Shown one piece after another: positions 12,492-18,737 of a stretch of 43,421 bases of DNA. The stretch's first letter is position 1. Every line of letters begins with the position of its first letter. The DNA is taken from the NCBI GenBank assembly GCA_023212695.1, contig JALCCG010000180.1, positions 1 to 43,421 on the forward strand, in the 5' to 3' direction. Origin of the DNA: Sporisorium sorghi (lineage: Eukaryota > Basidiomycota > Ustilaginomycetes > Ustilaginales > Ustilaginaceae). The notes beneath the pieces are model-generated. The model was not told the DNA's origin and ran no database searches. It worked only from the letters and a program-made list of their open reading frames with translations. A program made the translations under genes and the position numbers.

Positions 12492-12789
12492 CGCAGGTTT
12501 ATTCAACTTTGCCGGATTGTTTCTCAGGGATTTGAAGGTCGCGCCACTCAACGGGAAAGTGTGTCTGCAGCTTGGGTAAAGTTCGACGAGTGGGTCCCTT
12601 GCTGAGCTTGAGTTTGAGCTCTGCTCGTCGTCAGGTGGCTGTGAATGGCAGAGAGTGATCACAGACCATGGACACGCAATGCGAGGCTGAGTTTTTGGGT
12701 TGTGTGTTACAGTGTACAGCTTGGTAATTGCGCAAAGGCACTTGTGAGTGAATGAGGGGCCGTTTTGCTTCGATGCGAGAAGCACGCCT

Positions 12790-13044
12790 TTACTTGGCCT
12801 CCTCGCTGGCAGCACCGCCGGCAGCAGGGGCATCCTCGACATCGCCCTCGTCATCCTCATCGTCCTCTGCGCCAAAGTCAGGCATGCCACCCATACCGGG
12901 CAAGCCGCCCATTCCGCCGCCCATCTGCGCCATCATGCTCTGCAGATCCAAGCCTCCAGCACCGCCCATGCCCATCATCGAGGGGTCCATTCCGCCCATA
13001 CCGCCCATGCCGCCGCTGAGGCCCTCCTCGGCGTCGTTCTGCTC
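12790..13044 (-). pseudogene. Orphan C-terminal fragment of p23/Sba1 (displaced original 3' end)
   Basis: An in-frame 84-codon segment plus stop that resembles the last 74 residues of the complete p23 gene at 16503-17197. It starts EQNDAEEGLSGG, continues through GGMGGMDPSMM and GGLDLQSMMAQ, and ends in an acidic tail finishing ASEEAK. Across the first 39 residues, 33 match the complete gene apart from a two-residue gap; the ends then diverge. There is no start codon, CS domain or promoter of its own, and the similarity begins abruptly inside a coding sequence at 13044. It looks like the former 3' exon sequence of p23, pushed 3.7 kb downstream by the insertion next to it. Its acidic Gly/Met-rich ending resembles fungal p23 tails, so I infer that this copy is the ancestral one and the tail of the expressed gene is the newcomer. 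Confidence 0.8.
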
Positions 13045-15177
13045 TGTTCGGGGTGAGAGGGCCGTCGTCGTCCATGCCAGAGGAGTCCGTCGTGTAATGG
13101 GAGGAGGCCGACGAAGAGCGACTCGTTCCGCCGCCATTACCTTTCAAGTTGCCGTGCGAGGTAGAGGGTAGGCCGATGCCAAGACTCGCAGACTTGTCGA
13201 GACCATCGCACCCTCGGGCGCCCGAGGCGGATGCCATGTCGGACGAGTCGGTTGAGGGTGCCAGACCCTGGAGTCGGGTGGCAGCGGGGGCACGCGTTGA
13301 CAAGGCGACGGTGGAAGGACCGAGTTTGCGTCGCTTGTTGTCCAGTGTGGACTCGGTGTGGGGTGGCACGCCCGTGAAAGCCGACGGCAGGTAGCCCTCA
13401 CGAAGCGAGTGCCACTCGAACAGACCCGCGTTCAGATAGAACTCGGTCGGCAGGCGAGCAGGACGGCAGCGCACCTCAGAGCGGAGACGGTGGAGCGTGA
13501 GCGTCTGGTTGTCCGGGAGCGCCAAGGTTGCGTGAAGATCGAGAGGGAAGCAGACAGCGAGGACGTGCAAAAGGTCGCGTTTGGGAAAAGGCAGCGCGTA
13601 CATAGCCTCGTCCAGGTCGAGGTATCGCTGAATCTCTGCCTTCGCGACTGGGTCCTTGAGCGCGTCAACGAATCGCTGAAAGAGATCACGAGTCTCCGAG
13701 TCGAAGTCATCAGGAAAGCGGAGCCGGAACGATGTCGGCGGAGTGGCGTCGAGGTGCTCGTCCTCGTCCGAGTCGTGTTCGACGTACGGCGCTTTCCGCT
13801 TGCGGGGGTCCTTCGCAGGGCGATAGAGGCTGGCTCGACGGCTGCCACTAGCCTGTCCGTCCGGCATGTTGCCTCCACCCGAAGAGCCGCCTCCACCCAT
13901 GCCGCCATCGCTTCCGCCATCGGATCCTCCGTCGCCACCGCCGCCTCCGCCACCATTGCCTCCTGGCGGTCCACCTTGGTCATCCGGCGCGTCGTCGTCC
14001 GGGTTGTGAGGGGTCGGCAGAGATGGGAGGTGGAGGCCATATGTGTCGGCGACGCGTACGAGCGCGCGTTCGAATTCGGGAAGGGGAATGAGGCCTGCCT
14101 CAAGCTGGAGGGCACCGATGCCTGCGACGACGCCAAGAGCGCTTTGAGGGGCACCGACTGCGCCAGATGACGTGCGCTCTGGGATGGCGGTCGCATTCTC
14201 GCAATCATAGAACGAGATGTAGAGGTGGCGACCTGGTGCGATGGGGTCGTCCCAATCAAGGCGAAGGGTGATCCAGACACGACCTGTACCGAAGAGGCCA
14301 AAGGAAAGGCGGGCGAGGAACATCTGAGCACCCCTGCTTGCTGATGTTGTACAGCAGGCTGCGCAACCATGGCGCGTACGGGGCTGCAGAGTGCTGGCGG
14401 CCATCGGCGGTGAACATGCTTTCGACGTTCATCTTGTTGGTGTCGTCGTATTGAGCTGCCTCGTTGGCGTCGAGGGTGAAGTCGGGATACTGCAAGAAGA
14501 GACGACGAAGCTGCGCGGCGGTGATGGTGCGTGGGTCTTTGGCTTCGATGGAGATGAACGGGACTCCGCCATCAACCCGATCCGGATCGCCAGCGTGTCG
14601 CGGTACCCAGTTGAGGCAGAGGTCCGGAATGTGCCGGCCGAACCTCTTACGTGCAGCTGCGATGGCTGCAGGGGAAGGAGGCTCTTCGGCAGCCGGGGCA
14701 GGATCGGCCGGAGGAGCGGCAGCGAAGACGGCTTGCATGATGGCGTTGGTCTCGCGGTTGACGCGCATGTCACGGAGGAACGGACCCGTACGCAGGCGTT
14801 GTTGGGCCGTCAGCGCGTCGAAGAAGGGAGTGGGGGTCCTCCATGGTCGTGGTGGTCTCCTCTGCCAGTTGGAGTGCGCGGCGGAAGCGTTGATCGGGGG
14901 TGTCGTAGGCTGGAGGGAGGTTAGTGCGCGCGGTGCGCATGAGGCCGTCGAAGATCACGCGGCACTGATTTATGGTGGTGTTGCGGATGAAGACAACGGC
15001 GTCGCGTTCGGTGCGGATGAGGTCAGCGCGTTGAAAGCTGCCTGGATGGTCGAAGTTGACGTGACCGTGGCCGATCTCTCGCATCTGTCGCCAGATTGCG
15101 CCGAGACGGTCGTGCATTGTCTCGTCGACAGCGATCGTGATCGGGAACAGGCTCTTGCCGTTCTCCTTGGTCTCCAT
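12878..15177 (-). pseudogene. Element-borne gene with PD-(D/E)XK nuclease-like signature, two frameshifts
   Basis: Three overlapping open segments on the minus strand join into one product if one base is removed from each of two homopolymers: G5 at 14832-14836 and C4 at 14331-14334 (plus strand). From the ATG at 15177 to the p23 junction at 13045 this gives about 710 codons. The frame then continues 55 more codons through displaced p23 DNA, out of the p23 frame, to a stop at 12878. A nuclease-like block has HIPDLCLNW (Asp near 14624) and then FISIEAKDP (Glu near 14546, Lys near 14540). Further on are YNISKQGAQMFLARLSFGLFGTG and a strand-rich segment, an arrangement seen in fungal restriction-like domains. 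A Gly/Asp/Ser linker (13860-13965), basic clusters RKRKAP and NKRRKLG, and a second folded-looking region (about 13380-13760) follow. No close family is recognised. The frameshifts may be real decay or homopolymer sequencing errors. Confidence 0.6.
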
Positions 15178-15903
15178 GTCGAGTGACTTTGGAGGTAGGT
15201 CAGGGAACCATTCGCCGACGTCGGGGTCAGGGCAGTGCGTGAGCAGTGAAGGAAAAAAAAAAAAAAGGAGAGAAAGAAGAAAACGGAAGGAAGACGAGAG
15301 TGCGGCGCGCGTCGAGTGAAGATCAGCGCCGATCAAGGGGGCCCGATGCCAGCGGTGTGGGCGCGTCGTAAATTTATAAAGGGTGGCGCGCGTCGCGTTC
15401 GAGCAGAGGCGAGATGAGGGACGTGGCGGTCGTGTGGCGTGACGGCGATCGGGCCCAGCGAGAGCGTCAAGGTGAGCCCGCGGCGGTGGAGAACCGAAGG
15501 AAGAAGCAGAGTCGAGAAGAAGGCGCCAGCTGCCGGGTTGGGGAAGCGGTGCGGCGGGATGGACGCAGGGCTGGAGACGGGACAGAAGGCCGCGCCGTCG
15601 TCAGGTGAAGACAGGGTGATAAGCGGGATGAGGTTGGAAGAGACGCGACAGAACGGCGCAGGATGAAACGATGTTGGATCGTGCTAAGGCGGCGAGAGAG
15701 GTTGTGCGGTGATGGCGTAGAGAAAGGTGGAGATGGTGGATGGGAAGGGTCAGCCCGGTATCAGGTGAGTGTGGTGGGGAGGCATCCGTAGCGGGTGTGG
15801 GAGCCGCCGAGTTAGCATTTATATTTCCCGGCCGGGTGTGAAGAAGAGGGAAAAAGCGCACATCACACGTCAGGGGTGAGCGTGAGGTCTGGTGTAGGGG
15901 GGC

Positions 15904-15935
15904 TAAAGGGGGTTTCAAGAATCTGGGCAAATTCA
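15904..15935 (+). repeat. Left TAA duplication and terminal inverted repeat of the MITE-like element
   Basis: TAA followed by AGGGGGTTTCAA and a less conserved stretch containing GGGCAAATTCA. The partner repeat in inverse orientation is at 16250-16280. Confidence 0.7.
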
Positions 15936-16277
15936 CGGGACGGTTTACTCAAGAGGTTGGGTTTCCTGTGAATTTTGAGCACCCCATTTAAATTCGATTT
16001 TGGAGAGGCCTTTTTGTGTTATGAAGTAAAGGTCTAACCTTTTTAGGTAATTGAATTGCAAGAATCTAACATTTTCATCTATCTGAAATGCGAAAATCCA
16101 AATCAGGGTCTGGACATCTCAAAAAACACTGCTCCGAAGGCGGGTTTCCTGAAATGTCCGGACAAACCCTTTTTTGGCAGAGCTTACGTAATAAATTTTA
16201 CCCCAAACTGGGCTTCTGAAAAACCCGGCCGCAAATTTACTCGGGTAAATGACTTGCCCGAAAATTTGAAACCCCCT
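15907..16277. mobile_element. 371-bp MITE-like element with TIRs and TAA target duplication
   Basis: The ends are inverted copies beginning AGGGGGTTTCAA. The first 12 bases are identical at both ends, and similarity continues imperfectly through GGGCAA and a TCA. TAA stands directly outside both ends (15904-15906 and 16278-16280), the 3-bp TWA duplication typical of PIF/Harbinger and Tourist-type MITEs. The interior is visibly AT-richer than the surrounding DNA and has no coding content beyond a chance 74-codon frame. It is therefore a non-autonomous element whose transposase, if any, lies elsewhere. No second copy is visible in this window. It sits inside the larger insertion in p23, so it arrived after it or travelled with it. 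Confidence 0.72.
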
Positions 16278-16280
16278 TAA
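16250..16280 (-). repeat. Right terminal inverted repeat and TAA duplication of the MITE-like element
   Basis: Read on the minus strand it begins AGGGGGTTTCAA and continues to GGGCAAGTCA. The TAA at 16278-16280 lies just outside and mirrors the one at 15904-15906. Confidence 0.7.
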
Positions 16281-16502
16281 AGGTCCGATGACTCATGCAT
16301 GAGGCTGGTTGCCGCCAACTGTCCACACTCAGAGGGGCAACGGTGTGAGGACACGTATCTCAGTCTCAGAGCCGAGTCACGTGAGTGGATAAGCGGATGA
16401 TCGTTCTGGGGCGACAAGGATGTTCTCGAATCAGACCAAGATGCTAGGACAGGAGGGCTGTGGCGTCGGCTCGCCCATCTGTATGTTGAGAGCACCCGTC
16501 TG

Positions 16503-17197
16503 TCACACCGACCTTGCATCTTCCTCCGCCTCGTCAGCATCGATGCTCGTACCATCTTGGCTCTCCAGATCACCCAAGCCATTTCCCATATCCCCCTGAG
16601 CCAATGCCATCATGCTTTGCAGATCCAGCCCGCCGGCGCCGCCAGCACCCAACATGGCTGGATCCATGTTCATGCCGCCCATGCCACCAGCTCCGCCGCT
16701 AAGGTCCTCCTCGACATCGTTCTGCTCGTCCTCGTCGACCCACTTGTCGAAATCGGTCTTGACGTTGTGCAGGCGCACCTTGTCCTTTGTCAGGCGCGGC
16801 CAGTACTCGTCCTTGGCCTGCTTCTTGCGCAGTACGGCGTAGAGGCACTTGGAGTTGAGATGCGTCTTGCTCGCCTCGACGTCAATCTCGTCGAAAAAGT
16901 CGAGCGAAAACGAGTAGCTCTTGGAAGGGATGTTTTTCGACTCGTCGCCCACCGAGGCGTTGAAGGTGAAGCCGGTCGAGGTGAGGTCGAACTTGGTCGC
17001 TGGTGGAGCGGGCAGATTGGGCACGTTGATGGTGAGCATCACGACGTTCTTTCAGAAAAAGAGTAGATGTCAAGTGTCAGCCTTCGCTGTGTGTGTGTCG
17101 TTGATGTGATTACTGTTCTGCGCGGAGAACATACCTTTTCAGCCTCGTCAGCGGATGAGCGCTGAGCCCAAAGGATCTCTGGCACGACTGTCGACAT
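16503..17197 (-). CDS. SBA1: Hsp90 co-chaperone p23/Sba1 (CS domain) with replaced C-terminus
   Basis: Two exons: 17135-17197 (21 codons, MSTVVPEILWAQRSSADEAEK) and 16503-17048, joined by an 86-bp intron (GTATGT donor, CTGAC branch, AAG acceptor), giving 202 residues. The CS domain covers about residues 5-115 and ends in the p23 signature WPRLTKDKVRLHNVKTDFDKW, whose Trp and basic residues contact Hsp90. p23 stabilises the ATP-bound closed state of Hsp90 in cytosol and nucleus. From residue 129 (EQNDVEEDLSGG) to the end the protein is Gly/Met/acidic, ending EEDARSV. That tail matches the orphan tail at 12790-13044 only partly, and the two start at an identical 11-base word. I infer that the tail was replaced by the inserted element while the gene stayed intact. 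The start is fixed by the conserved N-terminal exon. Confidence 0.92.
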
Positions 17198-17636
17198 TTC
17201 GATAAAATCTCGAGTGTATATGTGTGTTGTTTCGAGAAGGAGAAGAGTGGATGTGGTGGAGGAGAAGGTGGGTTGAGAAGCTGAGTTGCTTTTGCGCACT
17301 CGCTGTCTCCACTTTGAGAAGAACAACTGAGAAAAGACAAACAGCGAGCGAGAGCCACAGTCTGTGCGCAGATGCTCTGAGAGTCGCGTGTCTGTTTTCC
17401 AGCGACTTCGATGGAAGTGGCTCAGGGCTTTCACTCTAACATTTTCCTCGCAAAACTTCTGTCGTGCGAAAAGAAGATTCTTCGAAAAACAAGGACCCTG
17501 ACAAGAAAAAGAGGAATTTTTGGCGAGTTTGCAGCGAATTTTTCAATTTTTAGCGGTCGTTTGGCAGTTTGTGTGGAGATTCGAACGCTCCTCGTCCTTG
17601 ACGTTCACCACCATCTAACCATATTCACAACTCGAG
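17198..17636. promoter_or_regulatory. Divergent promoter region between p23 and the Nop15-like gene
   Basis: 439 bp between two start codons. It contains G/A-rich sequence next to p23 and T-rich runs (GAATTTTTGG, CAATTTTTAG) upstream of the RRM gene. No specific site is assigned. Confidence 0.45.
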
Positions 17637-18737
17637 ATGGCGCCAAAGAAGACCACCGCCACCGCTGCTGATGCTGCGGCTACATCCACCAAGAGCACCA
17701 GGCCCACTAGAGCAGCCGCATCCAAAGCTGCTGCTGCTCCGGCTGCTCCAGCTGCTGCCACGACGAGCAAGGCCAACGGCAAGAAGCGCGCTGCTGCTGC
17801 TGCTGCTGCTGCTGACGAGGCTGATTCCACACCTGCCAAGAAGACCAAGCCACGCACCAAGAAGGCTGCTGCCCCTTCCCCTGCCCCTGCTGCTGCTGAG
17901 CAGGCCTCCAACGACGACAAAGATGAGCAGGACGCAGGAGACGTCAACGAGCGCGAGATCATTGCTTCTCTCTCCGACGTTTCCGCCGACTCTTCCGACG
18001 ACGACGCTTCGGACATCGAAGAAGAAGCCAACTCCTCTGACGAGGACGACGAGGACGACCGCCTCGCCACGTCGCAGCCGCGTTCCTCGCTCGCCTCTGT
18101 CAAGCTGCCCAATTCGAAAGACGACGCCGTAGTCCGCGCGCGTCTGGACAAGCTGCGCAAGTCCAAGTCTGCCTCCTCGTCGTCCAGCACCACCCCGGGC
18201 GTGCTGTACATCGGCCGTCTGCCCAAAGGATTCTTCGAGAAGCAGCTCAAGTCGTACTTCAGCCAGTTTGGCGATGTCACGCGCCTGCGTGTCTCGCGCA
18301 ACAAAAAGACGGGCGCGTCCAAGCACTACGCCTTCCTCGAGTTCGCCGACAGGGACGTGGCCGAGATCGTGCGCGAGACCATGCACAATTACCTGATCGA
18401 CGGCAGGCTGCTGCAGGTCAAGGAGGTGCCAAGGGACAAGGTGCACCCGGAGCTGTGGGTGGGCGCTAATAGGAAGTTTGCGAAAGTGCCGGGCGCGAGG
18501 CTCGAGAGGGTGGTGAGGAGCAGGAGCAAGACGGAGGAGGAGCAGAAGAGGACGAATGAGAGGGCGATCAAGAGGCAGGATGAGAGGAGGGCCAAGTTGG
18601 CGCGTTTGGGGATCGAGTACGAGTTTGAGGGGTACACTACGGATGGGAAGAAGGCTAGCAAGGCGACGGCAGCGGCTGGTGGGAAGGCGAAATCGACACC
18701 GGTTAAGGCGGCCAAGGCAAAGACGGCCAAGGCTTGA
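17637..18737 (+). CDS. NOP15: Nucleolar RRM protein, Nop15/NIFK type
   Basis: 366 residues, no intron. The N-terminal 170 residues are Ala/Lys-rich, then strongly acidic with Ser/Asp runs. One RRM lies at about 186-265: RNP2 is LYIGRL, RNP1 is KHYAFLEF, and the block GVLYIGRLPKGFFEKQLKSY is characteristic of the Nop15/MKI67-interacting (NIFK) family. The continuation, MHNYLIDGRLLQVKEVP with RDKVHPELW, is also family-specific. Yeast Nop15 is needed for processing of 27S pre-rRNA to 25S/5.8S and for cytokinesis. After the RRM a Lys/Arg-rich coiled segment (KTEEEQKRTNERAIKRQDERRAKL) and a Lys/Ala tail follow. GCT/GCC repeats encode the poly-Ala. It runs convergently into the Nudix gene 181 bp on. 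Confidence 0.88.
   Translation: MAPKKTTATAADAAATSTKSTRPTRAAASKAAAAPAAPAAATTSKANGKKRAAAAAAAADEADSTPAKKTKPRTKKAAAPSPAPAAAEQASNDDKDEQDAGDVNEREIIASLSDVSADSSDDDASDIEEEANSSDEDDEDDRLATSQPRSSLASVKLPNSKDDAVVRARLDKLRKSKSASSSSSTTPGVLYIGRLPKGFFEKQLKSYFSQFGDVTRLRVSRNKKTGASKHYAFLEFADRDVAEIVRETMHNYLIDGRLLQVKEVPRDKVHPELWVGANRKFAKVPGARLERVVRSRSKTEEEQKRTNERAIKRQDERRAKLARLGIEYEFEGYTTDGKKASKATAAAGGKAKSTPVKAAKAKTAKA

Follow-up and report, generated by a model that had tools for sequence, protein, structure and literature searches.

The window analysed here, the whole 43,421-nucleotide contig JALCCG010000180.1 of the smut fungus Sporisorium sorghi, corresponds to contig C94 in an assembly of 23.17 Mb and 469 contigs (GCA_023212695.1). 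It carries a complete gene for the chaperone p23/Sba1 (17197-16503) and, 3.7 kb away on the same strand, a separate p23 tail (13044-12790), with a nuclease-like gene on that strand between them. An earlier note on this DNA had described this arrangement, as well as an 11-base start and a codon register common to the two tails, and we confirmed both: the 11 bases are identical and open each tail in the register of codon E129. The segment that begins at this codon is the candidate homing-type element considered below, and the tail it left downstream is called the stranded tail, as distinct from the expressed tail on the p23 gene (Table 1). The neighbours of the locus are a DGAT2-like gene from 11178 and an RRM gene at 17637-18737.

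Table 1. Features of the p23 locus in the window (strand as read; "." where no strand applies)
Feature	Position	Strand	Remark
p23/Sba1 exon 1	17135..17197	-	splice model yielding the conserved p23 N terminus
p23 intron	17134-17049	-	86 bases
p23/Sba1 exon 2, with CS domain, expressed tail and stop codon	16503..17048	-	
Expressed (putative replacement) p23 tail from codon E129	16506..16727	-	GLDLQSMMA kept, then unlike the 18 best relatives
Shared 11-base word, left copy	16717..16727	-	
MITE-like repeat in the spacer that separates p23 from the nuclease-like gene	15905..16283	.	inverted pair I1
Nuclease-like gene, N-terminal piece, first frame	14833..15177	-	third positions the most G+C-rich of the three frames
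Nuclease-like gene, middle piece, second frame	14338..14828	-	open frame
PD...ExK motif	14538..14627	-	between hydrophobic strands
Nuclease-like gene, C-terminal piece, third frame	13045..14341	-	
C-terminal domain common to the C423 remnant	13319..13759	-	31% identity
Shared 11-base word, right copy	13034..13044	-	junction 13044/13045
Stranded p23 tail of the normal smut type, with stop codon	12790..13044	-	

The p23 gene encodes a product of 202 aa that resembles the p23s of Ustilago and its relatives. It matches the structure of yeast Sba1 (2cg9; E 2.2e-15), and its CS domain (PF04969) scored E 0.0013 and 20.1 bits, slightly below the cut-off of 21.3. A second, less likely splice donor is also possible for exon 1; the N termini of three relatives (P0003, P0004 and P0008) nearly match that of the window p23. 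When exon 2 was searched against the genome, three places were returned, namely the gene itself, the second tail (E 2.9e-8) and a weak match on contig C145 (E 0.045); four further places in the genome carry a CS domain, none of which was listed by this search. The search thus listed no second complete p23 gene of which the stranded tail might be a part. The description of p23 as an essential gene, by contrast, found no support, as a yeast sba1 deletion serves as a working strain (PMC7864943).

The stranded tail consists of 84 open codons and a stop. At the DNA level, positions 12929-13044 matched positions 16606-16727 at 74% (E 1.5e-17), and the similarity ended sharply at 13044. Fungal relatives were compared as proteins only: 1032 relatives of p23 were found at E ≤ 0.001, and the best 120 of these were used. 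As would be expected of a homing target, since homing nucleases favour highly conserved sites, the junction falls in KWVDEDEQ, which is the most conserved eight-residue window of p23 in a ranking over 119 relatives chosen by their similarity to the window p23. For the comparison of the tails, 13 of the 119 were dropped because they were short or had no motif, leaving 106 that were scored. By raw score the stranded tail was closer than the expressed tail to all 106, but it is the longer of the two; when scores were corrected for length by self score, it remained closer to 96, and the 10 exceptions were distant relatives (P0045 and below). At the protein level, the relatives agree with the prediction of an empty site in related species: in all 18 of the best relatives with a tail (P0019, which ends before the tail, being excluded), p23 is uninterrupted, and against their tails the stranded tail scored higher than the expressed tail in every case, with a small lead against P0017 of Tilletia. 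Over ungapped columns, the stranded tail was 96% identical to that of Ustilago trichophora and 94% identical to that of U. loliicola. The expressed tail continues for about 33 residues after GLDLQSMMA and reaches 30-48% against the same 18 relatives in its last part. GLDLQSMMA, matched by eye, is presumed to be the tail helix known from yeast p23; that helix contacts Hsp90 and clients, and the tail modulates both (PMC7864943).

Among the 39 codons compared between the two tails, there were 5, 4 and 18 differences at the first, second and third positions, respectively, and 12 of 16 fourfold sites differed. This pattern indicates that the tails split long ago under protein constraint, yet the stranded copy is still undecayed. 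Taken together, the deep constrained divergence and the intact stranded copy argue that the diverged tail was installed recently. The same two features fit poorly with a tandem duplication of p23 that left the second copy without its 5′ part, with some unrelated gene lying or moving in between and the expressed tail drifting afterwards. Such a duplication would explain why a second p23 tail occurs on the same strand at a distance of 3.7 kb, and the gene in between appears decayed, but the best match beyond the tail reached only E 0.99, and the odd tail sits on the expressed gene, not on the fragment.

Trees of the p23 body and of the tails were compared by the approximately unbiased (AU) test, on short alignments and with constraint groups that were named after the trees had been seen. 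The p23 body clustered with P0002, P0006 and P0019 (support 96/97), and its placement with P0003-P0005, with P0004 alone or with P0003 alone was rejected (p-AU 0.001, 0.0005 and 0.0015, respectively); the grouping of P0003-P0005 without the p23 body was not rejected (p-AU 0.12). The stranded tail was not rejected with P0004 (p-AU 0.29) or with P0003-P0005 (p-AU 0.51), and it was rejected with P0002 and P0006 (p-AU 0.014), a pair that by itself was not rejected in the same test (p-AU 0.40). The body and the stranded tail thus appear to have different nearest relatives, and the expectation that the stranded tail would follow the rest of the gene in a tree failed. The discordance suggests either that the conversion tract extended past the cut in the upstream direction or that the stranded tail came with the element, and a tandem duplication does not lead one to expect the body and the stranded tail in different clades. 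The expressed tail could be placed only ambiguously (p-AU 0.12 with P0002 and P0006, and 0.12 with the stranded tail). Within the body, at residues ~50-67, the window p23, P0002, P0006 and P0019 have in common a block of the form NASVGD...SK.YSF, whereas other Ustilago-type p23s carry the form HAKTGD...DKEY; this block is possibly an older conversion tract.

The gene between the tails runs from about 15177 to about 13045 (~700 codons). It lies on the strand of p23, as had been claimed, but it is not a single open frame: its reading passes through three frames one after another, and both changes of frame coincide with a short run of a single base. Its N-terminal piece had no Pfam match, and third-position G+C does not favour the frame of the middle piece throughout. 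The C-terminal piece reaches the junction without meeting a stop codon and continues out of register for ~55 codons into the stranded tail, where it stops at 12878. Introns in place of the two frame changes were considered and not preferred; the frames join without a gap, and third-position G+C supports them partly. Since open frames elsewhere on the contig reach 1543 codons, decay of the gene appears likelier than poor sequence. The gene may have encoded a nuclease, probably of the PD-(D/E)XK type, as suggested by the PD...ExK motif; in shuffled versions of the piece, a strict pattern recurred in 7 of 20000 and a loose one in 1083 of 20000, both patterns having been written after the sequence was seen. 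The term nuclease is used here on account of this motif, which no convincing family match accompanies. Among bacterial and archaeal genomes the protein had a single 21-residue match, taken as chance, and among viral contigs it had none.

A second locus, on contig C423, carries a relative of the C-terminal domain of this gene at C423:49750-50136 (31%, E 3.0e-10; E 1.3e-11 in the reciprocal genome search). No further copy was found in the genome beyond C423 at E ≤ 0.001, and one place at E 3.6 was taken as chance. The frame of the remnant stops ~10 bases before the C-terminal domain of a glutathione transferase (GST), which lies on the same strand in the next frame; the stop could belong either to the remnant gene or to the GST part. 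This sequence comprises the last 104 codons of a GST gene (GST_C, E 1.2e-8; GST_C_3 from residue 6), matches the C-terminal parts of GST structures and has no other copy in the genome at E ≤ 1. Of the GST 5′ half there was no sign on C423: none of the 16 GST_N matches in the genome lies on this contig, and none was found in the ten surrounding frames. A partial match on C443, tried as the missing half, looks like an ordinary intron-bearing GST, and inspection of C154 for it found nothing. The remnant has a weak C2H2 match (16 of 27 bits, below the cut-off), no CxxC and one C-x(2-4)-C pair. On the simplest reading, C423 would represent a second insertion, into a GST gene, after which the GST front and most of the element were deleted. 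We regard this locus as the strongest independent support for a homing-type element, because a duplication of p23 alone does not predict it. With a relative of the gene adjoining a GST tail elsewhere, tandem duplication of p23 is, in our judgement, unlikely.

The explanation that we favour, at a probability of about 0.6, is homing: the segment would be an element of homing type by which the host gene exchanges its 3′ end for a new one. A nuclease encoded by the apparently decayed gene would have cut p23 near codon 129, and the break would have been repaired from an element-bearing copy, so that the diverged tail and the nuclease gene were installed together. The new tail would keep p23 working and would probably destroy the cut site, while the previous 3′ end, or else the stranded end that the donor already carried, would remain downstream as a homology arm. 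This cycle would be the one proposed for the yeast WHO elements at FBA1. The order at the locus is that of a host p23 with an unusual but helix-keeping tail, the apparently decayed gene behind it, and then directly a normal tail. The insertion at codon 129 with a replacement 3′ end, as put forward in the earlier note, is supported, and so is the stranding of a tail of the normal smut type behind it; cutting and homing, and with them repair, immunity and selfish spread, we infer.

Several results weigh against this explanation. The supposed nuclease matched nothing convincing in Pfam, NCBIfam, PHROGs or the PDB sequences (best E ~0.04-0.1), and in a large protein collection no relatives of it were found among the 8000 candidates sharing most words, a prefilter by which distant relatives may be missed. 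A single-sequence fold model was unusable (predicted local distance difference test score, pLDDT, 42), and a second model was too poor (pLDDT 50). The copy in the window, being interrupted as read, would not be expected to be active. With the GST 5′ half missing from C423, that locus does not show a replaced GST tail, and placing its exact junction would take a relative of the GST. Finally, the relatives with an uninterrupted p23 were compared as proteins.

Introgression or break repair without a homing nuclease, by which foreign DNA with the p23 gene of another smut was joined in where a break happened to occur, bringing the gene in between as a passenger, would fit both the different nearest relatives of the body and the stranded tail and the supposed nuclease's want of a family match. 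A chance break, however, would have had to fall at p23's best-conserved codons, and a passenger would have had to pair again, through a relative, with the stranded tail of another gene on C423; we consider this history improbable as well. An assembly error fusing pieces of two genomes is conceivable in an assembly of 469 contigs for which there were no reads for checking, but it is very improbable, given that a mixed sample would give two complete p23 genes where one was seen in the assembly, that the junction lies at a shared codon within a 43-kb contig, and that a similar layout recurs at C423. Least credible of all is splicing of the whole segment as a long intron to make a normal p23 with the stranded tail, which is intact, would continue the register of p23 and has an AG near its start, for no strong donor was seen by eye around the cut, the intron would measure ~3.7 kb against 86 bases for the one in p23, and the expressed tail is itself an open frame that ends in a stop.

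Orthodox inteins (VDE, PRP8) and intron-borne homing genes also target conserved codons of conserved genes, and they are removed by protein or RNA splicing, whereas the p23 element would need no splicing, the 3′ end being replaced. To our knowledge, the WHO elements are the only ones described that home by replacing the 3′ end of a gene. As described in PMC7282813, the WHO elements at FBA1 of Torulaspora and Lachancea resemble the candidate smut element in having a nuclease gene (a putative one in the smut) behind a conserved gene with a replaced 3′ end, a 3′-end fragment of the target gene behind the element, 5′ and 3′ ends that homing makes discordant in trees, low identity between relatives, frameshifted copies, and stray copies (those of WHO10) among fragments of other genes. 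The smut element differs in belonging to another phylum and in having p23 and a GST tail as neighbours, not the usual FBA1; some WHO copies lie elsewhere than FBA1 (PMC7282813). WHO proteins are intein-zinc finger fusions related to HO (PMC7282813), and in the smut gene no piece had a LAGLIDADG or Hint match and none of the three pieces had a CxxC. Since neither the intein-zinc finger protein nor the FBA1 target was found, we do not file the segment as a WHO element; the likeness, which the earlier note had drawn for the strategy, lies in the layout and the 3′-end replacement. By this comparison the element would be WHO-like in its working and probably of independent origin.

Two other systems bear on parts of this comparison. 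I-Ssp6803I, from a cyanobacterial group I intron, is a precedent for a homing nuclease with a PD-(D/E)XK core, the smut assignment being motif-based, and differs in residing in the self-splicing intron of a tRNA gene (PMC1995217). In Ustilago maydis, a mitochondrial GIY-YIG homing gene in a RecQ helicase gene likewise cost a nuclear smut gene its C-terminal part; according to PMC7593156, that event was accidental and of mitochondrial origin and left the host truncated, whereas p23 has a working-looking new end. Our search of the literature, outside which most subscription papers lay, returned no report of 3′-end-replacing homing elements in Basidiomycota. We suggest tentatively, at somewhat less than even chances, that smuts harbour an independently evolved class of homing elements with a nuclease unrelated to HO and WHO and at least two target genes (SBA1/p23 and GST), and that the strategy arose more than once. 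If this is true, 3′-end replacement would be a general strategy, used in another phylum by a different nuclease and on different targets; such elements would turn over the ends of conserved proteins, which would account for sudden tail changes in conserved proteins such as p23.

Some further features of the two loci were recorded. A listing of inverted repeats showed no terminal inverted repeats at the ends of the p23 element, and no Pfam domain of a reverse transcriptase or transposase was found in it. Its DNA is single-copy in the genome apart from the part resembling a miniature inverted-repeat transposable element (MITE), a repeat of 379 bp whose terminal inverted repeats, 25 bases long, are imperfect; when positions 12700-17300 were compared with the rest of the genome, the nine DNA matches all fell within this repeat, and partial copies of it lie on C414 (91%) and on C2, C342 and C432 (73-74%). 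On C423, a MAPEG gene just upstream (4860-5459 of L015, a piece of C423) appears to lack the first ~41-44 positions of its domain, and none of these was seen upstream; the gene may be another fragment or stranded tail, or it may have a distant first exon. At or near the start of both stranded tails we noticed by eye the six-letter form GAGC(A/T)G, at 13039-13044 in the window and at 4098-4103 of L015, on the minus strand in each case, which might belong to a recognition site or be due to chance.

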